This document shows positions 6,969 to 29,801 of a DNA stretch of 31,712 bases, in pieces. Where the stretch lies: NCBI GenBank assembly GCA_021157815.1, contig JAGGVT010000160.1:1-31712 (forward strand). The letters run 5' to 3'. Source of the DNA: a bacterium. GTDB lineage: Bacteria; JAJVIF01; JAGGVT01. The translations under genes were made by a program, and so were the position numbers. Below the pieces are notes generated by a model. It made no database searches. It saw only the letters and a program-made list of their open reading frames with translations, and was not told the origin of the DNA. How positions within the stretch are numbered: the stretch's first letter is position 1; each line of letters begins with the position of its first letter.

Positions 6969-7327
6969 TCACGAATCTCCATGCAAATATTTCCGGCAAG
7001 CCCTGAAAGTAAAGGTTTTAAGCGTCAAACCTGCCAGAAGTGAAACAAGGCAATTATATCACCAGTTTGCCAATTAACAAAACGCATGTCGTGAAATTTA
7101 ACTTAAAATTATCCTGACAGCATTTCAGATTGATATAGCAATTAATAGAGTGCGAAGTTTGGTGGTGAATGTTCAAATCCTCACGTTAAAACTTGCACAT
7201 GGCGGCGTGGGTTATCCACAGGAATATAGACTGCAAAGTAATGTAGCGCTGGCGTCCCGCCGGCTGTGTCGGAAACGTCCCGTTTCTCTTGCCCTCGGGA
7301 CGGGGACGCCAGCGCTACGGGCAATAC
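6969..7327. other. Intergenic region of 359 bases
   Basis: This gap lies between the lipoprotein gene end and the lipid-kinase-like gene start. It holds the inverted-repeat element at 7243-7318 and one perfect DnaA-box-like word TTATCCACA at 7212-7220. The rest must include the promoter of the gene at 6282-6968, but I see no convincing box. No coding signal is seen. Confidence 0.6.
7243..7318. repeat. Short inverted-repeat element, GTAGCGCTGGCGTCCC type, copy 1
   Basis: The 76-bp element begins GTAGCGCTGGCGTCCC and ends with the exact reverse complement GGGACGCCAGCGCTAC. An inner hairpin CGTCCCG/CGGGACG is present. The same ends occur at 19837-19993. It starts 9 bases after the stop of the lipoprotein gene (7328), where the hairpin could also act as a transcript end. 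Confidence 0.85.
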
Positions 7328-9269: not shown

Positions 9270-9373
9270 GAAAAATAGGGACAGTTACCTATTTTATGTC
9301 GCCGATAAACACTGGCAACTTGACTTTGGCTTAACCATGCGGTTTATAAAACAGGTAACTGTCCCTATTTTTC
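9270..9373. repeat. Inverted-repeat element with GAAAAATAGGGACAGTTACC ends
   Basis: The element of about 104 bp is bounded by GAAAAATAGGGACAGTTACC and its inverse GGTAACTGTCCCTATTTTTC. The similarity continues inward for about 8 more bases (TATTTTAT against TGTTTTAT). Its right end touches the stop codon of tnaA (9373-9375). No transposase gene is present, so it would be a non-autonomous element or a REP-type hairpin. Confidence 0.85.
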
Positions 9374-15477: not shown

Positions 15478-15951
15478 TTAAGTATTTTCAAATGGGAGTT
15501 TTGGTTGATTAACCTGAGGTTTCTCAATTACCAGTGCAGGATTGCCTGCTATAATATTTTTTGAAAGCAGATGTTCATCAAACGTATTGAACAACTTAAT
15601 TTTATCAATCATCGCAGTAGATATATGGATTGCATCTTTTGGTTTTATACCAAAAGACCACACTATCTCACGAGCAAATTCAGCAATATGAATGGTTACA
15701 TTTTTAACTGCAATATAATCACTCCTGAAAAACAATACTACTTTATCCTTATCCTTGACAGGAATGGGTGATTTGCCTTTAATGTAAAGAACCTCAGCAA
15801 TTGTAAGAGCTGAGGTAACAATCATTATATTTCCTTCTTTAGCCTCTTCTAAAACAGTTTTGCAAAGATCTTTTTTATCAGACTCACCTTTTAACATACC
15901 CAAAAAGCAATCTGAATCCCAGTATCTGATTTCCTTTTGAACTTTTTTCAC
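15478..15951 (-). CDS. PIN-domain ribonuclease (VapC-like toxin candidate)
   Basis: The 157-residue protein is a single PIN domain, the usual size for VapC-type toxins. The acidic residues that hold the metal are in place: Asp12/Asp14 in YWDSDCF, Glu53 in LTIAEVL, Asp106 in KPKDAIHI and Asp125 in NTFDEHLL. VapC toxins cut specific tRNA or rRNA. The start is a GTG whose G is the last base of the preceding gene's TAG, so translation is coupled to that gene. This tight arrangement with an upstream partner is typical of toxin-antitoxin pairs, although the partner is not a known antitoxin type. The pair looks more AT-rich than its neighbours, hinting at transfer. Confidence 0.85.
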   Translation of the reverse strand: MKKVQKEIRYWDSDCFLGMLKGESDKKDLCKTVLEEAKEGNIMIVTSALTIAEVLYIKGKSPIPVKDKDKVVLFFRSDYIAVKNVTIHIAEFAREIVWSFGIKPKDAIHISTAMIDKIKLFNTFDEHLLSKNIIAGNPALVIEKPQVNQPKLPFENT

Positions 15952-16691
15952 TAATAATTCTCCAGAATACCAATTACACTGTGGAAATCAGGAATATCAT
16001 CCGCTTCTGGGAAAGGAATGACATTATCAACTGTAATACTGACTGGGGTTCCATCCTTTTTATATCTGATGTCTCCAAAAACCTCTATTCGCTTTCCAAA
16101 TAATTTAAACATACTACTAAGCTTGTTCTCATCTATCCAACATCTTATAGCTTTATCCCAAACAGGTTCATATAATACAAAATGAGGTTTTTCTCTCATA
16201 CTAATTGTGTGCAACCAACCTTCGACAGAACCGTAAGCTTGCCCTGCTCTCAAAATCTCCTTTGTGTGTTCGATTATATTGTTTGTGATGTTTACTGGCT
16301 TAGATCGTCCTAAAATTGAAATAGATAAATCTGTTCCTTTGCTTTTTCCCAAAATCCCTGCCAGTTGTTGAGCATGCCTGATCGCCTTATCAGAAAAATA
16401 TCTTGGTTCCTCAATTTTTTCTTCGAGTATTCTTAATCCTTGCTGGACAGAGTCTTTTACTAATTCCACTTTTCGAGCCTTACAATCCTGGTGTTGTTTA
16501 AAAACAACTTCAGTGCTACCTTCGCGAACCTGAATAATCCATTTTATTAACGATTCATCTTCACATATTTCCTCTGTCACTGCTTTAATAATTTTGAAAA
16601 ACTCATTTACGCCATCAATAAATACTTCAGGCAACAAATCATGCCCTTCAAACTTGATAGTCAATTCATTATTTTTGTCCTTGGATTGCAT
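15951..16691 (-). CDS. Unrecognised protein coupled to the PIN gene, possible antitoxin
   Basis: I do not recognise a named family. The protein has 246 residues from the ATG at 16691 (247 if the adjacent GTG at 16694 is used). It has no signal peptide, membrane segment or visible DNA-binding motif. The N-terminal half is charged and helical (LRILEEKIEEPRYFSDKAIR). The C-terminal half is beta-rich, with KRIEVFGDIRYKKDGTPVSI and IPFPEADDIPDF near the end. It is far larger than usual VapB antitoxins, which are about 70-90 residues. Its stop codon overlaps the PIN gene start by one base. No Shine-Dalgarno is seen; a TAAAAT lies nine bases before the ATG, so it may be leaderless. Confidence 0.7.
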   Translation of the reverse strand: MQSKDKNNELTIKFEGHDLLPEVFIDGVNEFFKIIKAVTEEICEDESLIKWIIQVREGSTEVVFKQHQDCKARKVELVKDSVQQGLRILEEKIEEPRYFSDKAIRHAQQLAGILGKSKGTDLSISILGRSKPVNITNNIIEHTKEILRAGQAYGSVEGWLHTISMREKPHFVLYEPVWDKAIRCWIDENKLSSMFKLFGKRIEVFGDIRYKKDGTPVSITVDNVIPFPEADDIPDFHSVIGILENY

Positions 16692-16700
16692 CACATTAAT

Positions 16701-16706
16701 ATTTTA
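16701..16706 (-). promoter_or_regulatory. Possible -10 box of the PIN cassette
   Basis: TAAAAT on the minus strand ends nine bases before the ATG at 16691. This matches the spacing seen at four other genes in the window that lack a Shine-Dalgarno. The -35 region at the normal distance (TTATCT) is weak. Confidence 0.35.
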
Positions 16707-19836: not shown

Positions 19837-19993
19837 CTCGTAGCGCTGGCGTCCCGGGGTTCCGCATAGATAGCCGCTTCCCCGGCATGCCTGATTCACC
19901 TTATAGATAATTGTTTCTTTAGTTCGGGACGGCATGACCGGGTTACGGGAAAAATAGGCTTTTTCAACAGCCCCGGGACGCCAGCGCTACGAG
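19837..19993. repeat. Inverted-repeat element, GTAGCGCTGGCGTCCC type, copy 2
   Basis: The 157-bp element has perfect 23-base inverted ends: CTCGTAGCGCTGGCGTCCC then GGGG at the left, inverse at 19971-19993. It shares its outer 16 bases with the element at 7243-7318, but the interior is different and longer. It lies about 55 bases upstream of the likely rnhB start and carries an open frame joined to rnhB. Confidence 0.88.
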
Positions 19994-20624: not shown

Positions 20625-20652
20625 TTGGGGCAAAAACTGAATGAGGTATAAT
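20625..20652 (+). promoter_or_regulatory. valS promoter, leaderless arrangement
   Basis: TTGGGG at 20625-20630, a 16-base spacer and a perfect TATAAT at 20647-20652 precede the valS ATG at 20660 by only seven bases. Transcription would then start at or beside the ATG, with no room for a Shine-Dalgarno. Confidence 0.6.
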
Positions 20653-20659
20653 ACGCATC

Positions 20660-23389
20660 ATGAAAAATCATAAACGGCCTGATAAAGCAAGCATTATGGA
20701 ACGCGCCTACGACCCGGCTGAGGTCGAGAAGGACTGGTATGAATTCTGGGAAAGCGGCGGTTATTTCGCCACGACAGGAGAGGGAAAGAAATTCAGCATG
20801 GTAATACCGCCTCCTAATGTTACAGGTGATCTGCATATCGGCCATGCGCTGAATCTGGGACTTCCCGATGTTATCATTCGCTACAAGCGCATGTGCGGAT
20901 TCGATACGCTGTGGCTTCCCGGTGTGGATCATGCGGGAATCGCGACGCAGACAGTCGTGGAGCGAAAACTTCTCGAAAAGGGGATTAAAAAAGAGGAACT
21001 CGGGCGTGAGAAATTCCTGGAGGAAGTCTGGAAATGGAAAGACTCGGCGTATGACTATATAACGAACCAGATGCGAAAAATGGGATTCAGCGTTGACTGG
21101 TCGCGCGAGCGATTCACACTCGATCCCGGACTGGCGCGCGCGGTGCGTGAGGTTTTCGTGCGCCTGTATGAAAAAGGCTGGATTTATCGGGGAACGTACA
21201 TGGTGAACTGGTGTCCGGTCTGCCAGACTGTCCTCAGCGATCTTGAGGTCGAACATGTAGATATCGAGGGTGGTTTGTACGACATCACTTATCCGCTTGA
21301 GGGCGGCGATGGCAATACGGGCATTACTGTCGCGACAACGCGCCCTGAAACAATGCTGGCGGATACTGCGGTTGCGGTTAATCCGAACGATAAGCGTTAT
21401 AAAAAATTGATTGGCAAGAATGTAATTCTTCCTCTGATGGATAAACCGATTCCAATTATCGCGGATGATTATGTCGATATCGAATTCGGAACCGGCGCGT
21501 TGAAAATCACTCCGGCGCATGATCCGAACGACTATGAGGTCGGGCTTCGGCACAATCTGGATGCGCCAATCGCAATCGGCAAGGATGGGAATATAACCGA
21601 CATTCATTCTAAATATCAGGGAATGGACAGGTATAAAGCGCGAGAGGAAATTCTTAAAGACCTGAAAGAGCTTGGACTGCTTGGGAAAATCGAGAAATTC
21701 ACTCACGCGGTGGGACATCATGACCGGTGCAAAAACGAGATAGAACCGTACATCTCGACACAGTGGTTCGTGAAAATGGATGAGTATGTCAAACCCGCGA
21801 TTGAGATTGTCCGCGACGGCAGGTTGAAACTCATCTCGGACAGGTGGTCGAAAGTTTATCTCGACTGGCTTGAGAATATTCACGACTGGTGCATCAGCCG
21901 CCAGTTGTGGTGGGGGCATCGCATCCCGGCGTTCTATTGCGATGACTGCAATGAGATTATTGTCGCGCGTGAGGACCCGTCAGAATGCCCGAAATGCGGA
22001 TCGAAAAATATCCGCCAGGATGAGGATGTGCTCGATACATGGTTCTCAAGCGCTCTCTGGCCGTTCAGTACAATGGGCTGGCCGGATGAAACCGATGATT
22101 TAAAGCGATATTACCCTACTGATTTGTTAATCACCGGCTACGATATTATTTTCTTCTGGGTCGCGCGGATGGCGTGGAGCGCAATGGAATTCATGGGCGA
22201 TGTTCCGTTCCACGAATGTTTCATCCACGGTCTTGTCAGGGATGAACACGGCAAGAAGATGTCGAAATCAACCGGAAACGCTGTTGACCCGCTTGAGACA
22301 ATCGCGGAATTCGGATGCGACACTCTCAGGTTCACGCTCACAAGTTTGACTTTCAGGGGCAAGCAGGATATCAGCCTCGGGCGGGACAAGCTGCAGTCGA
22401 GCAGGTTTTTCATGAACAAACTGTGGAACGCGGCGAAGTTCGTTTTAATGAATCTCGAAAAGCCGTTCAATGCTGAAAAGCTGGACGATATCGAGAAGGA
22501 AATCAAGGGATTGAAAAAAGGCGGGCAGCTGAATATCGCGGATGAGTACATTCTCGACAAGTATTACACTGCGGTTAAAAAAGCGACAAATGAACTTGAT
22601 CGTTATAATTTCGGTGAATATACCTCGACACTCTACCAGTTTTTCTGGGATGAATTTTGCGACTGGTACATAGAATGCGCGAAAACACCGCTACGGTTAA
22701 GCGGTGCGAACCAAAAACACGCGCGCTTTATTCTGCAGATGATTCTAATGCGAATGCTGCAGATCCTTCATCCCGCGATGCCATTTATCACGGAAGAAAT
22801 ATGGCTCGAATTTCCCGGACAGTACAAACCGCTGATTGTCAGCGACTGGCCCGGGGTTTACGAGCGATGCATCGATGAGCACGCTCGCGCTAAATTCGAG
22901 CAAATCAAATCGGTTGCAAGCGCGATTAGAAGTTTGCGCAAGGATATCGGTTTGAAAGATTCTGCGGAGGCGCGTGTCGCGGTGATGGCATCCGATGAGG
23001 ATTTGCACGGCCTGTTAATAAGCCAGCAGACAATGATTCGCGATTTGACCAAACTGCAATCGCTTGAAATGATGCCTGCCGGTTCGGATGATCCTGAAAA
23101 TTCAATATCACTCGAACTCGATGATGGCACTTCCGATAAGCCATCCACGAAAGTTTTTCTGTTAATCGATGACCCATCGATACTTGACACTCAAATCAAG
23201 CGTCTCGAAAAAGAGGAAGCGAAAATCGGCAAGTATGTCGAATCGCTGAAAGGCAAGCTGTCGAATCCCGGATTTGTTGATAAAGCGCCACCGGCGGTTA
23301 TTGATGCGGAGAAAGCAAAGCTGTCCAAAAGCGAAGGCGAGTTGAATATTGTGCGGGAGCGGCTCGCGAAGATGCGGGGGTTGTTGTAG
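20660..23389 (+). CDS. valS: Valyl-tRNA synthetase
   Basis: This class I synthetase charges tRNA-Val. The 909-residue length is normal. The HIGH motif is at residues 59-62 (GDLHIGHAL), the KMSKS motif at 533-537 (GKKMSKSTGN), the editing-domain block TTRPETMLADTAV near 225, and the C-terminal coiled-coil tail lies at about 840-905. A zinc-knuckle-like CX2C-X12-CX2C (C427, C430, C443, C446) sits in the catalytic half. The first ATG lies seven bases after a TATAAT, so translation may be leaderless. Met13 (MERAYDPAEVEKDW) is the other start and also lacks a Shine-Dalgarno. No T-box is seen. Confidence 0.97.
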   Translation: MKNHKRPDKASIMERAYDPAEVEKDWYEFWESGGYFATTGEGKKFSMVIPPPNVTGDLHIGHALNLGLPDVIIRYKRMCGFDTLWLPGVDHAGIATQTVVERKLLEKGIKKEELGREKFLEEVWKWKDSAYDYITNQMRKMGFSVDWSRERFTLDPGLARAVREVFVRLYEKGWIYRGTYMVNWCPVCQTVLSDLEVEHVDIEGGLYDITYPLEGGDGNTGITVATTRPETMLADTAVAVNPNDKRYKKLIGKNVILPLMDKPIPIIADDYVDIEFGTGALKITPAHDPNDYEVGLRHNLDAPIAIGKDGNITDIHSKYQGMDRYKAREEILKDLKELGLLGKIEKFTHAVGHHDRCKNEIEPYISTQWFVKMDEYVKPAIEIVRDGRLKLISDRWSKVYLDWLENIHDWCISRQLWWGHRIPAFYCDDCNEIIVAREDPSECPKCGSKNIRQDEDVLDTWFSSALWPFSTMGWPDETDDLKRYYPTDLLITGYDIIFFWVARMAWSAMEFMGDVPFHECFIHGLVRDEHGKKMSKSTGNAVDPLETIAEFGCDTLRFTLTSLTFRGKQDISLGRDKLQSSRFFMNKLWNAAKFVLMNLEKPFNAEKLDDIEKEIKGLKKGGQLNIADEYILDKYYTAVKKATNELDRYNFGEYTSTLYQFFWDEFCDWYIECAKTPLRLSGANQKHARFILQMILMRMLQILHPAMPFITEEIWLEFPGQYKPLIVSDWPGVYERCIDEHARAKFEQIKSVASAIRSLRKDIGLKDSAEARVAVMASDEDLHGLLISQQTMIRDLTKLQSLEMMPAGSDDPENSISLELDDGTSDKPSTKVFLLIDDPSILDTQIKRLEKEEAKIGKYVESLKGKLSNPGFVDKAPPAVIDAEKAKLSKSEGELNIVRERLAKMRGLL

Positions 23390-23582
23390 TGGATAAATAT
23401 TAAGCAGAGGTGCGAAAACGCAGGTGGTTGTACACGCAGAGGGATAAATCCCTCTGCTATGGGAGAATCGGAATTTGCAGCGGTTTAAGTTATTCCGCAT
23501 GGGGTTAAAACCATATGCTGTGATTTTTGTTGAAATACTTGCGTTACACAGTGTGAGGTTTTAATCTGATGCGGGAAATGAA

Positions 23583-23760
23583 ATATTGAGACCTCTGAAA
23601 AAGAAGAAATGATGCTGGTTTTATTAGTGAAAAAGAATAGATTTCTGAGGACAGACTAAAGAACCGGGTCAAGCCCGGAATGACATTGTTAAACCTGGAA
23701 TGACAGTAGTTTGTCATTCCGGCGAAAGCCGGAATCCATCCTTTTTCAGAGGTCTCATAT
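23583..23760. repeat. Middle inverted-repeat element, GAGACCTCTGAAAAA ends
   Basis: The ends GAGACCTCTGAAAAA (from 23588) and TTTTTCAGAGGTCTC (to 23756) are exact inverse copies, with ATAT flanks matching apart from one extra base. The element of about 178 bp lies inside the outer pair and encloses a further pair, so it looks like an insertion into an older element. Confidence 0.8.
23664..23737. repeat. Innermost repeat pair, GGAATGACA type
   Basis: CCGGG-TCAAG-CCCGG followed by GAATGACA faces TGTCATTCCGGCGAAAGCCGG in inverse orientation. A partial copy, CCTGGAATGACA, lies between them at about 23695. The sequence resembles the widespread short repeat containing TGTCATTCCGGCGAAAGCCG. Confidence 0.7.
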
Positions 23761-23837
23761 TAAATAGCAGGGGGATTTATCCCTCTGCTTTTCCCTAACC
23801 CTCTGCTTTTTTAATTAATCCAAACTGGAGGTGAAGC

Positions 23838-24956
23838 ATGCAAAATATTCTGAAAGATCAATCAGGCTTTACACTAATTGAGTTCCTTGTGATGATTACT
23901 CTTTTTGGAATCATGGTCTCCGCAGGTTGTATGGGAGCCATTAAAGCAAGAACGAATTCCAGAGAGGACGAAGTTAAATCGAATATACACGCTATTCAGG
24001 TTGCGCTTGAACGCTACGCTGTAGATTCAGGTGGAATCTATCCGCTAATTCTTTATGGCGGAGACCACACCGATTCATTCACCACCCGATCTTCTCCTGA
24101 CTTTCAGGATTCAACAGGAAAGATGCAATCCGGTATCAGCGAATACAATGGAGATATAGATGTTCTGTTGGAATACGGTTACCTTGCTGAATATCCTGTA
24201 AATCCATTTCGAAGAAAGTATGATGTGAAGAAATACGGTCACGTACTTACTCAACCATCACAGTATAATCTTCCACAGCTTAATTATCGTGTTAACATTT
24301 GGGCAAATCATCCTGATCCTGTCCACGGACATTCAGACAGGGCGCAGCAGTTGGTTGAACGACAGGTTGGCGGTAAAAAAGCCAATCTCATGTGGGATGT
24401 TTCAGAGGGACAAAGGCATGCTCCTTTTCCGATAGTGGTTGTTCCTGATCCGTCTCCTGATGCACCTGGCAATTATTATGATTACGTAAATCCCAGAATA
24501 GGCTTCAATATTACTGATGTAGCTCAACATGAGACCGACTATCTATTCTTTCTTCTTCCGGGTAACTTCTACTACTATGCAACCTTCAACAGTCCCGGAG
24601 GATACAGCGCGTTTATTAACGGAGACCTGAATCGACCCTTCAAAACTGATGTCATCGGATACAATCTGGCTGGTTATGGTTCCATTGAGAACCTGGGAAA
24701 AGGTGTTATTGATGTTTATAACATTATGGGTGATTATACCGATCGTTCACTATTTACAGTCAATAACCCAGATCAGGATTTTGCCGGTTTGTCGCCAGAG
24801 GAAGTTAGCAACAAGATTTATGTAGGACCTGATGGCCGAAATGATGGTGTTGTCATCGTTGTTCAATCAGGATTTGATATAAAACCGAAGCCTAAGGTTG
24901 ATTTAAAACCTGACGAGATACTGATGCTTGGTTCAGATAAAAGCAAGGATTTGTAA
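23838..24956 (+). CDS. Large prepilin-like protein (type IV pilin / pseudopilin N-terminus)
   Basis: GGAGG lies seven bases before the ATG. The N-terminus MQNILKDQSG followed by FTLIEFLVMITLFGIMV is a class III prepilin signal: cleavage is expected after Gly10, with Phe as the first mature residue and Glu at mature position 5. The next part, IHAIQVALERYAVDSGGIYP (residues about 54-73), is like the helix of GspG-type pseudopilins. The 372-residue total is far longer than usual (about 130-180). The C-terminal 280 residues are rich in Tyr, Asn and Asp and are not recognised. No other pilus or type II secretion gene is nearby, so assembly machinery must lie elsewhere. Confidence 0.85.
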   Translation: MQNILKDQSGFTLIEFLVMITLFGIMVSAGCMGAIKARTNSREDEVKSNIHAIQVALERYAVDSGGIYPLILYGGDHTDSFTTRSSPDFQDSTGKMQSGISEYNGDIDVLLEYGYLAEYPVNPFRRKYDVKKYGHVLTQPSQYNLPQLNYRVNIWANHPDPVHGHSDRAQQLVERQVGGKKANLMWDVSEGQRHAPFPIVVVPDPSPDAPGNYYDYVNPRIGFNITDVAQHETDYLFFLLPGNFYYYATFNSPGGYSAFINGDLNRPFKTDVIGYNLAGYGSIENLGKGVIDVYNIMGDYTDRSLFTVNNPDQDFAGLSPEEVSNKIYVGPDGRNDGVVIVVQSGFDIKPKPKVDLKPDEILMLGSDKSKDL

Positions 24957-24989
24957 CGGCGGTTATCTGATAAATCGCTTCCTTTTGCC

Positions 24990-26735
24990 TCACTTCACCT
25001 TTCGCTTCTTTAACAAGCGTTCATCGGGCGAGTCAGCGAGGATGTTCTTCTCTTTCTTATATGTAACAAAACCCTTGTCGCCGCCTTTGGGTTTGTTGAC
25101 ATATTTCAACTGCGTGTAATCGACCGGGACTTTGGTCGCGCCTTTTACTTTCGAGTGATAAACAGCCAGCTGCGCGGCGAATACAAGCGTATCGAACTCT
25201 ATCGCCTCCCCGCGGCGTGGAATAAGGACATGGCTTCCGGGGATGTTTTTTACATGAAGCCAGTAATCATCCGCCCGTCCCCATTTGCATAAAACCTCGT
25301 TGGCGCGGTCGTTGCCGCCGACATAAATATCGTGCCCCTCGACTGATTTATAATGATGAATATTCTCGCCCCTTAGTTTTTTCGGCAGCTCGACAGATAT
25401 CTCCTCCGGCTGTTTCGATTTAACATACCTCCGAACTTTCCCGCCTTTAATTTCAGCCAGCGCTTTTTGGAACTCAGCGTCGTCAGCGTGCAGGATTTCA
25501 TCCGGCGGATTCAGCAGCGAGTCAAAATCCGCGAGTTTATTCTCAGTCTCCTCAAGGCGCGATGTTATTTCCTTCATACCTCGTGACATTCGGGACGCCC
25601 GCCGGTGATATTCCCTTGCGCTCGACACCGCATCCTTTCCCAGCAGAAGTTTCAGTTTTATCCTGTCGCCTGATTCAGGATTGATTATGTCATCGACTTC
25701 AATCGCGCGCGCGCCATCCTTGAATTCATGCAGGAAAGCGTAAATCAAATCGCCCTGTTTACGGTATTCATCGGACTTACGCGCTTTCGATTTGTCCTTC
25801 TCAAGATTTGAAACAAGTTTTTTCAACGATTTAATTCTCGCCTCGACAACCTTCCGCCACTGGTTTTCCCGACGTTTTATTCTCTCCTGCTGCGTGGAAT
25901 CATCATAGAATCGCCCAAGCGCGCGATTAACGGGGAAATCATCCGATTTTTTAATCTCTAAAATCCTGCTGAAAGGCGGAAACAGGTTGTTTGATTCAAA
26001 GCGGTCAATCGCCGCTGTCAGCGCATGATGCAGATTCTCTATCTGTTCATCAGAGAGATTATCAAGTTTCAATTTTCTGTCCAGGTTCGCATTTTCAGCG
26101 ATAAATTCAACAAATCCGGGAGTAACGCTAGAAAAGACAGACAGAAGCAATCGTCCCCATTCCTGGCCGCTGTCAGAATTTTCAATGAATTTGATAAAAT
26201 CAGCGAGTGGATATTTTGTCAGCGGGATTCGCTCAGCCGTTGATGGCAGCGTGTATTTATGCCCCGCCCTGAATGTACGCCCCTCTTTATCCCGCGATGA
26301 CTGCATCCTGTCCGATACGATAATAACGCCCTCTTCATCGGTCAGGATAAGATTCGAATGGCGTCCCATCAATTCAGCGACCAACCTGCATCGCTTTATT
26401 TCACCCGAGAATTCCTTTCGCGTGGTGTGAATCTCGATAATCCTTTCGCCATCATGCAGGATAAAATCCTCGATAATCGCACCATCGATATGATGCCGCA
26501 GCGTCCGGTGGAAATGCTCATCCCTGCCTTCACTTCGAGATGGGATTTTTCCCACCAGATGCATACGTGAATTATCAGCCTCTGCGGATAACAAAAGCGC
26601 AAGCAGGTTGTCATTTCTCAGTATTAACGCGACAGATCGTTTTCCCCGCGAGATAATATCCTGAATCCGCGTATCCATCACATGCGGATAAAGCTCATCG
26701 AAAGCGAGTTTTATGGTGATATAATCGAGTTGCAT
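24990..26735 (-). CDS. rqcH: NFACT-family ribosome quality control factor RqcH
   Basis: RqcH binds stalled 50S subunits and adds alanine tails that mark unfinished peptides for destruction. The 581-residue protein has the NFACT-N domain at the N-terminus, with LMGRHSNLILTDEEG at about 128-142 and HDGERIIEIHTT before it. A coiled-coil middle follows (about 285-410). The NFACT-R domain covers about 460-575, with DIYVGGNDRANEVLCKWG and DYWLHVKNIPGSHVLI. Length and domain order match bacterial RqcH/FbpA. It converges on the prepilin gene with a 33-base gap. No Shine-Dalgarno is seen; a TATAGT box ends eight bases before the ATG. Confidence 0.93.
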   Translation of the reverse strand: MQLDYITIKLAFDELYPHVMDTRIQDIISRGKRSVALILRNDNLLALLLSAEADNSRMHLVGKIPSRSEGRDEHFHRTLRHHIDGAIIEDFILHDGERIIEIHTTRKEFSGEIKRCRLVAELMGRHSNLILTDEEGVIIVSDRMQSSRDKEGRTFRAGHKYTLPSTAERIPLTKYPLADFIKFIENSDSGQEWGRLLLSVFSSVTPGFVEFIAENANLDRKLKLDNLSDEQIENLHHALTAAIDRFESNNLFPPFSRILEIKKSDDFPVNRALGRFYDDSTQQERIKRRENQWRKVVEARIKSLKKLVSNLEKDKSKARKSDEYRKQGDLIYAFLHEFKDGARAIEVDDIINPESGDRIKLKLLLGKDAVSSAREYHRRASRMSRGMKEITSRLEETENKLADFDSLLNPPDEILHADDAEFQKALAEIKGGKVRRYVKSKQPEEISVELPKKLRGENIHHYKSVEGHDIYVGGNDRANEVLCKWGRADDYWLHVKNIPGSHVLIPRRGEAIEFDTLVFAAQLAVYHSKVKGATKVPVDYTQLKYVNKPKGGDKGFVTYKKEKNILADSPDERLLKKRKVK

Positions 26736-26743
26736 TGTTGTTA

Positions 26744-26772
26744 ACTATAAAGCAGACTGCGGATAATTTACA
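26744..26772 (-). promoter_or_regulatory. rqcH promoter, leaderless arrangement
   Basis: On the minus strand TGTAAA (26767-26772), a 17-base spacer and TATAGT (26744-26749) end eight bases before the rqcH ATG. The predicted transcript would begin at or near the start codon. Confidence 0.5.
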
Positions 26773-26839
26773 GTGTTAAATTTATTATGCATCAAATAAC
26801 ACCATGCTTAAGCGTAGTGTTACAGAAAAGGAAAAACAG

Positions 26840-27244
26840 ATGCGACCCCAGACACCGGCTTTAACAGTGGATGCCGTAATCAATCACACGGATGGCGGAA
26901 TCATTCTTATCAAACGCGGACATGAGCCGTTCAAGGACTGCTGGGCGTTGCCGGGCGGATTTGTGGATATCGGCGAGACTGTCGAGGATGCCTGCATTCG
27001 TGAAGCTAAAGAGGAAACCGGGCTGGATATACGAATCGACAAACTACTCGGAGTCTATTCCGACCCCACACGAGATCCTCGCGGACACACTGTCAGCGTT
27101 GTGTTTTTGTGTACGACAGTGTCAGGTGAACCGGTCGGCGGCGATGATGCCAGCCTTGCGCAGTCTTTTAATCGTGAGGAAATGGGAAAAATCGATCTGG
27201 CGTTTGACCATAAGGAAATTATGTCAGATGCGGGCATGCATTGA
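26840..27244 (+). CDS. Nudix hydrolase (ADP-ribose pyrophosphatase-like)
   Basis: Nudix enzymes cleave nucleoside diphosphates linked to another group. The frame opens at 26804, but AAGGA lies seven bases before the ATG at 26840, giving 134 residues, a normal size. The Nudix box is complete from Gly40 to Leu62: GGFVDIGET then REAKEETGL, with the metal-binding REXXEE. WALPGGFV just before it is typical of small Nudix proteins acting on ADP-ribose or oxidised nucleotides; the substrate is not certain. It is divergent from rqcH, with about 100 bases between their starts. Confidence 0.9.
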   Translation: MRPQTPALTVDAVINHTDGGIILIKRGHEPFKDCWALPGGFVDIGETVEDACIREAKEETGLDIRIDKLLGVYSDPTRDPRGHTVSVVFLCTTVSGEPVGGDDASLAQSFNREEMGKIDLAFDHKEIMSDAGMH

Positions 27245-27902
27245 GCATGTCGGGAAAGGTTATTTTTATATCTCGTCCCCCCCTTAATCCCCCCGCGAGC
27301 GGGGAGAGATTTTATTCCATTTGCTTACACAATATATTCGGTCTATATACTTGTGAAGGGAAGAGACAACATTCTCCCTCCCCGCTCGCGGGGAGGGCTG
27401 GGGTGGGGGCATCATGTTGTTTAAGCATCAAAATGCGCGAAGACCGGTTGAAAAAAAACCGGCCTTCACTGGTGGGTGGAGATTTACTTAAATGACCTAC
27501 TCTATGTCCCTGGAACGCCCTGGATTAATATGGCAGAAGGGATCCCACCTCTGTGAGGTGAATCCCACTATTATCCCTCCTGCCAATCGTTTTTTACCTC
27601 CCCTTTGGCAGGCAAATCCTTTTTGTAATATGCCCCTTCGCCAGAGTCCAGAAATATTGAACCCGATGACCTTTTGACGGTAAGGAGTGTTGTTCCCTCA
27701 ACAACTTTTTCCTCTAACTCAAATTGAAATCCAGAAGAAAATAAAAAAACAGCAAAAGTCAACCACATCTATCTTCTGGTTTTCTCTTGCTATAGGAGTT
27801 TTTTTCAGATGTTAGTCAATTCCTAAATCTTTATAACAATTCACATTATACCTTTAAATCCAAAAAACCGCAATGATACCAATTGGAAATTGTTTTTATA
27901 TT
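27245..27902. other. Intergenic region of 658 bases with hairpins
   Basis: The gap holds the G/C-rich element at 27276-27410 and a hairpin at 27439-27467 (GAAG and CCGGTT arms with an A-rich loop). A further hairpin near 27540-27568 pairs GGGAT/CACCTC with GAGGTG/ATCCC. Another pair, CCTGCCAA/TTGGCAGG, is near 27580-27613. Two short open frames here lack ribosome binding sites and do not look coding. The AT-rich right part (27720-27900) shows nothing recognisable. Confidence 0.55.
27276..27410. repeat. Inverted-repeat element with CCCCGCGAGCGGGG arms
   Basis: The left part (CCCCCCTTAATCCCCCCGCG then AGCGGGGAGAG) and the right part (CTCCCTCCCCGCTCGCGGGG then AGGGCTGGGGTGGGGG) are imperfect inverse copies about 135 bp apart. 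The core CCCCGCGAGCGGGG of each is close to palindromic. This resembles a short repeat seen in many bacteria. Confidence 0.8.
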
Positions 27903-28661
27903 TCATCGTATCAAATGCAGAATTTTATCAGAGATTTTTTCCGCTTCATCGCCGCCTTTGATATCAACCACGCCCAGCGCGCTGACTTTCATGCCAAGAT
28001 ATCCGGCGATAAGCGATTCAGGAACAATTGCCCGTCCAAATGTCCCCGCTCCCGCCTGCATTGCTTTCGATAGGATATCCTCTGATGTGGATTCACTTGT
28101 TGCCAGATGCACTACTGACGGATAATCACCCAGTTTTTCGGAAATGTAAAGCGATTTGGCATCCAGGAAAAACTCCTCCGGTTCATTAGGCATCATCCAG
28201 TAATCCAGAGGATTTATGCCTGTCATGTCGATATGGTCATCGATTCGCACGATTGCGCTGTTAATTTCACCAAGTGCGCTTACACCGTCGATAATCATCA
28301 CCGACTCAATCTTAAGCCATTTGAAAACATGAAGAGCGAACGACATCTTCTCAAAGACATTATCCGGCTCATCAGAATCGCAAGAATAACAAACGGATGG
28401 TGGATTTTCTCCGCAATCAATTAGCGAAAATCCCATTGATTCATTTTCACTGCCAATTTCCAGAGTATGCTTTCTGGATGTTATAAGCGCTTTCAGCTCA
28501 TCCGTCAGGGATGGCCCAAGCAGGATTGATGATTTGAATTCGCCCACATCGGAACCAATCAAAACCTGACGAGCTGTATTGATTGGTATTTCAGGTGGAT
28601 ATTGTGATGGCAGTTTAATCGGCAATCTTAACGCCTTTGGGATTATTTTAAAACGTCGCAT
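27903..28661 (-). CDS. Degenerate purine nucleoside phosphorylase-like protein
   Basis: The 252-residue protein keeps the frame of trimeric purine nucleoside phosphorylase: LIGSDVGEF at 34-42 for the ILGSGLG loop, DHIDMTGINPL at 142-152 for DHINxTGxNPL, and VPESLIAGYLGMKVSALG at 213-230 for VPEVIxARxxGxRVxGxS. The working residues are replaced. The GRxHxYEG segment is missing, TNAAGG is IDGVSALG (124-131), GPxFET is ATSEST (187-192), MST before VPE is RAI, and the base-binding Asn of ITN is Ile in VDIK (232-235). It is probably not an active phosphorylase and may bind a nucleoside or act as a partner. No Shine-Dalgarno is seen; TATAAT ends nine bases before the ATG. Confidence 0.8.
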   Translation of the reverse strand: MRRFKIIPKALRLPIKLPSQYPPEIPINTARQVLIGSDVGEFKSSILLGPSLTDELKALITSRKHTLEIGSENESMGFSLIDCGENPPSVCYSCDSDEPDNVFEKMSFALHVFKWLKIESVMIIDGVSALGEINSAIVRIDDHIDMTGINPLDYWMMPNEPEEFFLDAKSLYISEKLGDYPSVVHLATSESTSEDILSKAMQAGAGTFGRAIVPESLIAGYLGMKVSALGVVDIKGGDEAEKISDKILHLIR

Positions 28662-28670
28662 ACTTACCGT

Positions 28671-28698
28671 ATTATATCAGCATTTTCGATAAGTTCAA
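28671..28698 (-). promoter_or_regulatory. Promoter of the PNP-like gene, leaderless arrangement
   Basis: On the minus strand TTGAAC (28693-28698), a 16-base spacer and a perfect TATAAT (28671-28676) end nine bases before the ATG at 28661. Confidence 0.65.
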
Positions 28699-28747
28699 AA
28701 AGCGCGAATTGCAACCCGGCATCCCTTTGCCGAGGTAATGCATGAGT

Positions 28748-28884
28748 TGTAGCCCGGGAATCCATTTCCCGGGAAAATTGACTGCCGCAATGCAATATGG
28801 TATTCAATCAAGCATGGTTTATTAAAAATTCTTGTTTGTTTATCTATGTTCCGTTTTCCCCGGGAAATGGATTCCCGGGCTACA
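28748..28884. repeat. Inverted-repeat element, TGTAGCCCGGGAATCC type
   Basis: The 137-bp element has ends of about 30 bases that match in inverse orientation with only one inserted G: TGTAGCCCGGGAATCCATTT at the left and AAATGGATTCCCGGGCTACA at the right. Each arm is partly palindromic (CCCGGGAATCCATTTCCCGGG). Its right edge is two bases from the HAD gene stop. Confidence 0.9.
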
Positions 28885-28886
28885 TT

Positions 28887-29588
28887 CTATTGTTTTATAA
28901 AAGCGTTCAATAATGTATTCAGACTAAAATCCTCGCCAACGATAGCAAATCGCATGCCTGCGTTCATCGCGCCGACAGCGTCATATTCCTCCCTGTCGCC
29001 TATGTATAACGCCTCTGATGCCTGAACGCCCAAATCATCCAGCGCTTTTAGAAATATGCGCGGATCAGGTTTTCTTTTTCCTATTACACTCGATATAACC
29101 ACCGTTTCAAAATAATTCTCAATTCCGACCTTGCGCATCAACTGCCTGATTCTGCTTTCCGAATGTGTTGCGTTTGACACCAGTCCGATTTTGTAACCGT
29201 TATTTTTAAGAAAATCCAGCAATTCGATTGCGCCGTCAATGGCAATGGTGCTGTCATGTTCGAGTTCGAATATCAGATCATCAAACGGTTTCGCAAGCCG
29301 TTTTGCCGATTCATCCGTGAAACCCAGCTGTGAAAAGAAAGCCTGATTAAAATCGGTGATTTTCAATTTTCTGTCTTTGGAAAAAAATTCATCCTGCATC
29401 GTAATCCAGTACCGCTCGATAATCATGCGGAAATCGGAATATGAGATTCGAGGGTCGTCATCGGTGAGTAGATTTTGAAATTCCCTGTACGCATCCGGCG
29501 ATGGATTATTGATGTATTCAATCAATGTCCCGCCAAGGTCGAACAGCACCGCTTTTATGCCTGTTATATCGATTGCCGGTTTAATCAT
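28887..29588 (-). CDS. HAD-superfamily hydrolase
   Basis: The 233-residue protein has the haloacid dehalogenase motifs: FDLGGTL (Asp17 nucleophile), LVSNATHS (motif II), the lysine in GKRKPDP (motif III) and YIGDREEYDAVGAMNAG (motif IV). A helical cap lies between motifs I and II, about residues 30-100. The second Asp of DxD is Gly19, which removes the usual acid/base residue of phosphatases; such DLGGTL variants exist in the family. The substrate is unknown. No Shine-Dalgarno is seen; TATAAT ends eight bases before the ATG, which argues for leaderless translation. Confidence 0.87.
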   Translation of the reverse strand: MIKPAIDITGIKAVLFDLGGTLIEYINNPSPDAYREFQNLLTDDDPRISYSDFRMIIERYWITMQDEFFSKDRKLKITDFNQAFFSQLGFTDESAKRLAKPFDDLIFELEHDSTIAIDGAIELLDFLKNNGYKIGLVSNATHSESRIRQLMRKVGIENYFETVVISSVIGKRKPDPRIFLKALDDLGVQASEALYIGDREEYDAVGAMNAGMRFAIVGEDFSLNTLLNAFIKQ

Positions 29589-29596
29589 ACAGCAGG

Positions 29597-29602
29597 ATTA
29601 TA
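29597..29602 (-). promoter_or_regulatory. -10 box of the HAD gene, leaderless arrangement
   Basis: A perfect TATAAT on the minus strand ends eight bases before the ATG at 29588. The -35 at 17 bases (GTGAAT) is weak. Confidence 0.5.
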
Positions 29603-29638
29603 ACCAATGATCGGATAAAATTCACTACTCGTAATTAA

Positions 29639-29655
29639 TTTGTACCCGGTACAAA
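29639..29655. repeat. TTTGTACCCGGTACAAA palindrome, copy 1
   Basis: TTTGTACC-C-GGTACAAA has perfect 8-base arms and is flanked by AATTAA and TTAA. An identical copy lies 131 bases away at 29770-29786. It lies about 50 bases upstream of the HAD gene start. It may be an operator for the divergent HAD and lipoprotein genes, or one end of a small mobile element. Confidence 0.6.
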
Positions 29656-29769
29656 TTAAAAACAACCAAGTATGACTGATTATTGTTAATAAGACATAAT
29701 ACGTCAATCCCGCATCCAATGCGCAAAGCGAGGAGAATAATCGGAATCCGTTTAAGGCACGCAAATTAG

Positions 29770-29786
29770 TTTGTACCCGGTACAAA
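29770..29786. repeat. TTTGTACCCGGTACAAA palindrome, copy 2
   Basis: This is an exact second copy of the 17-base palindrome, also followed by TTAA. It lies 15 bases upstream of the -35 box of the lipoprotein promoter, a position where a bound regulator could act. Confidence 0.6.
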
Positions 29787-29801
29787 TTAAATGCTCCAAA
29801 A

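Follow-up and report, generated by a model that had tools for sequence, protein, structure and literature searches.

A minority of the genes of this bacterium are probably expressed from leaderless mRNAs, and this is the best reading for three genes of the window, specifically rqcH, a gene labelled PNP-like, and the gene of a HAD-family hydrolase, as judged from the placement of promoter-like boxes in the DNA. The window, meaning the whole stretch of 31,712 nt that was analyzed, is contig C29 of a 221-contig genome (3.2 Mb, 91% complete, 44% GC). In the proposed mechanism, the boxes preceding the HAD, rqcH, and PNP-like genes would serve as −10 elements in promoters of the usual housekeeping-sigma kind, in many cases with the TGn extension; transcription would start at the A of the ATG or within 1–2 bases of it, the mRNAs would be leaderless because the −10 element is placed against the ATG, and translation would begin by direct recognition of the 5′-terminal AUG rather than through a Shine-Dalgarno (SD) sequence. 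The three genes would belong to a minority class of ∼40–55 of 943 genes (4–6%) in an otherwise SD-using genome, where SD words peak 4–9 nt before starts in the 1.40 Mb sampled.

An earlier sequence-only reading of the window had reported TATAAT-like boxes before five genes, each 7–9 nt from the start codon and each lacking an SD, and had predicted leaderless mRNAs from this. All five boxes were located as reported (Table 1). The spacing holds for valS, rqcH, the PNP-like gene, and the HAD gene; for the PIN-partner gene it depends on an ambiguous start, the box lying 6 nt from a GTG at 16694 or 9 nt from an ATG at 16691. An SD-like tetramer is absent from the 25 nt before the starts of the rqcH, PNP-like, HAD, and PIN-partner genes, and the good SDs described for flgA, flgI, flgG, and the prepilin gene are likewise visible, but the absence of an SD is not clean for valS. 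The leaderless prediction thus fits rqcH, the PNP-like gene, and the HAD gene, whose first ATGs are fixed, and leaves valS doubtful and the PIN-partner gene ambiguous. Gene by gene, we consider leaderless expression highly likely for the HAD gene, whose box has a posterior of 0.81 in the motif model described below, likely for the PNP-like gene, somewhat less securely likely for rqcH, and doubtful for the PIN-partner gene. The name PNP-like found no confirmation, as a Pfam search with a cutoff as permissive as E = 1 gave no match to the protein. The same holds for the product of the PIN-partner gene; the PIN protein itself is encoded by the partner of that gene (15478–15951, PF01850).

Table 1. 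Boxes and associated genes in the window, with strand and spacing to the start codon.
Feature	Position	Strand	Remarks
TAAAAT, weak −10-like box of the PIN-partner gene	16701..16706	−	1 mismatch to TATAAT
GAGGT, possible displaced SD of valS	20643..20647	+	12 nt before ATG
TATAAT box	20647..20652	+	7 nt before valS ATG 20660
valS (valyl-tRNA synthetase)	20660..23389	+	Pfam PF00133, PF08264, PF10458
rqcH (NFACT family), predicted leaderless	24990..26735	−	residue 4 matches position 1 of the PF05833 NFACT_N profile
TATAGT −10 box	26744..26749	−	8 nt to rqcH ATG 26735; no SD; in-frame TAG inside box
PNP-like ORF, 252 aa, predicted leaderless	27903..28661	−	no Pfam family
TATAAT with upstream TG (TGATATAAT), extended −10	28671..28676	−	9 nt to PNP-like ATG 28661
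HAD-family hydrolase gene, predicted leaderless	28887..29588	−	residue 11 matches position 1 of the PF00702 profile
TATAAT −10 box	29597..29602	−	8 nt to HAD ATG 29588; in-frame TAA inside box

The window also contains several repeats. A palindromic 28-mer (AATTAATTTGTACCCGGTACAAATTAAA) occurs in two near-identical copies (29633–29660 and 29764–29791), and its core (GTACCCGGTACAAA), with both strands counted, has 13 occurrences in the 1.40 Mb sampled. An interspersed repeat (GTAGCGCTGGCGTCCC / GGGACGCCAGCGCTAC) lies at 7241–7320 and 19840–19990, with nine occurrences of its 15-mer core in the 1.40 Mb, four of them in the window. A 97% inverted repeat (TGTAGCCCGGGAATCCATTTCCCGGGAAAA, 28748–28884, 77 nt between the arms) separates the HAD and PNP-like genes, and its core has about a dozen copies in the 1.40 Mb. 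Two further inverted repeats of 25–28 nt are found at 9270–9373 and 23436–23788, one of which centers on GGTAACTGTCCCTATTTT, a sequence that occurs six times in the 1.40 Mb. No hit came from scanning the window for Rfam families or tRNAs.

The case of valS is complicated by a GAGGT whose final T is the first T of the TATAAT box, so that the claimed lack of an SD is unclean. We lean, on balance, toward the alternative that valS, and perhaps other boxed genes, is leadered, with GAGGT as the SD, a promoter further upstream, and an accidental TATAAT. In two genomes of the same class (G001 and G003), GAGGT lies exactly 8 nt before the valS ATG and no TATAAT is found there (GAGGTATAAGTTAATG and GAGGTACGAAAAAATG), a comparison that favors an SD origin of the signal; however, the upstream likeness among these relatives amounts to a few bases, and the spacing of 12 nt is poor for an SD, whereas the 7 nt between TATAAT and the ATG would suit a leaderless start ideally. 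A leaderless valS is in our judgment possible but questionable. The best named matches of the valS product are from Clostridia (Lachnospiraceae) at 45–49% identity, which fails to place the genome; as close relatives may be missing from the collection, these matches are no demonstration of gene transfer.

Could the start codons instead be miscalled, with the real starts downstream and the boxes serving as normal −10 elements of short leaders? This is very unlikely. An in-frame stop lies 12–18 nt upstream of the valS, rqcH, PNP-like, and HAD starts (a TGA at 18 nt in valS), making the called ATG the first possible start in each, and the matches to Pfam profiles start at residue 4 in RqcH, at residue 11 in HAD, and at residue 1 in both RuvX and FolE2, which fixes these four starts and argues against miscalling. 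With many ValS homologs the alignment does not begin until residue 13, which is a Met, as this alternative would have it, but this Met lacks a preceding SD, and the ValS proteins of two same-class relatives carry N-terminal extensions of a similar kind. Furthermore, a gene was left out of the strict genome-wide test, described next, if an SD preceded any of its candidate starts within 50 codons. ATG was the start in 47 of the 50 genes with a posterior >0.5, under a start choice that preferred first ATGs.

The genome-wide scan covered 1.40 Mb of the 3.2 Mb, in which 944 genes were called with a dicodon model and 943 analyzed. Genes without an SD were defined either loosely (n = 391; no 4-base run of AGGAGG at any start within 50 codons) or strictly (n = 228; a wider SD definition, applied to every plausible start within 50 codons), and 467 SD genes served for comparison. 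These non-SD sets were chosen after the profile over all genes had proved flat; two definitions of an SD were tried, as were two ways of choosing starts, and the excess reported here was present in all four. Among the boxed genes of the window, only the HAD gene belongs to the strict set, since valS, rqcH, and the PNP-like gene each have a weak SD word near a later or neighboring candidate start.

The scan for TANNNT proposed with the original prediction revealed no peak over all 943 genes (97 seen vs. 102 expected at gaps of 6–9 nt), and the profile of TATAAT over all genes likewise lacked a clear peak, because SD genes dilute the signal; exact TATAAT among genes without an SD, in contrast, was strongly enriched. 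In the strict set, 11 boxes were observed at gaps of 6–9 nt vs. 0.8 expected (P = 1e-9), and 15 vs. 1.4 at gaps of 5–11 nt (P = 3e-11), whereas the SD genes had no excess (3 vs. 8.2 expected at gaps of 5–11 nt). In the looser set, TATAAT at gaps of 6–9 nt (16 vs. 2.75) ranked first of all 4096 hexamers by enrichment, and other permutations of its letters occurred 0–6 times each. Boxes preceded 11 of 202 non-SD ATG starts vs. 39 of 10149 intergenic ATGs that are not starts (odds ratio 15, P = 2e-9). Under the strictest start filter, only four boxes were left vs. 1.2 expected, a point against the leaderless reading.

Raw counts of TATAAT-N6-9-ATG, set against an N16-19 control, were made in 30 genomes. 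In the genome studied here, the whole-genome count was barely above the control (243 vs. 226); dilution of a small leaderless class would have this effect, but the count offers no independent support. Three genomes of other lineages (G007, G019, and G022) had clear peaks (34 vs. 6, 54 vs. 18, and 21 vs. 5, respectively), which shows that the raw-count test can detect a frequent signal, although it is insensitive for this genome; the peaks suggest common leaderless use in those three genomes.

Several properties of the boxes would fit promoters. The TGn extension precedes 8 of the 15 boxes in the strict set vs. 11 of 251 (4%) TATAAT hexamers inside genes. A nine-base motif learned by expectation maximization (EM) from positions 15–95 upstream of SD genes only, and hence from leadered promoters, was found at gaps of 5–11 nt in 24% of non-SD genes (bootstrap 16–28%; LLR 43), compared with 4–10% of non-SD genes when other distances were taken and with 0% of the SD genes at the same gaps; these absolute fractions are rough, because the motif, whose fit took in almost all SD genes, is loose. 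Net of background, the motif model yields ∼40 genes, and at most ∼55 of 943, or about 4–6%. A search for −35 elements at the boxes gave no clear signal (mean match 2.7/6 vs. 2.5 at random positions), which counts against the promoter reading. Extended −10 promoters can tolerate a weak −35 element.

It is highly improbable that the boxes are A/U-rich translation enhancers within a leader, such as sites for ribosomal protein S1, rather than promoters: S1 sites may underlie the AT-rich bias before non-SD starts (Nakagawa, 2017; PMC5397173), but of 20 permutations of its letters only TATAAT itself gives the signal, which is also accompanied by TGn and matches the leadered promoter motif of the genome itself. 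Least credible is chance, whereby AT-rich intergenic DNA would yield TATAAT near ATG and the window would have been noticed for that; the window is indeed an outlier picked afterwards, and one or two of its five boxes could be accidental, but the genome-wide P-values (1e-9 to 3e-11), backed by a number of controls, are against it. TATA[AG]T at leaderless spacing precedes 20 of the 943 genes, specifically 4 of 25 in the window and 16 of 918 elsewhere (post hoc P = 0.0024 for this contig and 0.006 for any contig), and the boxed genes seem locally clustered in the contig, a speculative hint at a locally shared expression mode.

Leaderless initiation as read here has precedents. Leaderless genes were found in 207 of 953 bacterial genomes, accounting for ∼40% of genes in Deinococcus-Thermus, ∼19% in Actinobacteria, and often a few percent in other groups, and the TA-led signal was described as TANNNT or TATAAT ∼12 bp before the start without an SD, the full TATAAT being found in medium-GC genomes (Zheng et al., 2011; PMC3160421). 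The genes described here resemble these TA-led genes in the −10 box, the absence of an SD, the full TATAAT at 44% GC, and the share of a few percent, and differ in the notable TGn extension and in that their transcription starts are predicted from sequence. They share the promoter-to-ATG spacing and the lack of an SD with the leaderless mRNAs of Deinococcus-Thermus and Actinobacteria; however, ∼20–40% of genes are leaderless in those groups, whereas the present genome is dominated by SD initiation, and its share of about 4–6%, with no TANNNT peak over all genes, falls short of a genome-wide use by at least ∼20% of genes. The mechanism is thus already described, and the lineage is poorly sampled.

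Comparison with three other genomes of the class revealed a mixed pattern. The rqcH gene of G002 has TGATAGAGT 7 nt before the ATG and no SD, consistent with the same leaderless mode, although this single case may be due to chance. In the genome studied here, ruvX (L281–L284) has a leaderless-type promoter, with TGATATAAT 9 nt before the ATG, whereas in G001 and G003 the TATAAT of ruvX is kept and is followed by a leader of ∼20–27 nt with a strong SD (GGAGGAGG or GGGAGGAGG). For the glycosyltransferase (GT2) gene L112, no such box was found in G001, and the leaderless spacing of neither ruvX nor the GT2 gene is conserved in the relatives, which likewise tells against leaderless expression; for FolE2, no relative was found in the class. 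From rqcH, ruvX, valS, and L112 taken together, changes of initiation mode seem to affect genes one at a time, as has been reported between related genomes (Zheng et al., 2011; PMC3160421). On a speculative and rather unlikely account, for which ruvX would be an example, leaderless genes of this lineage arise when the leader that carries the SD, located between the ATG and a conserved −10 element, is lost.

An all-gene scan alone would have missed the leaderless class, and for annotation, starts without an SD are worth checking for a −10 box at 6–9 nt. The leadered and leaderless-type forms of ruvX within one class provide a small, testable case of change in initiation mode, and the boxed genes would add a lineage with little sampling to those in which this known, minor mode of initiation is used.
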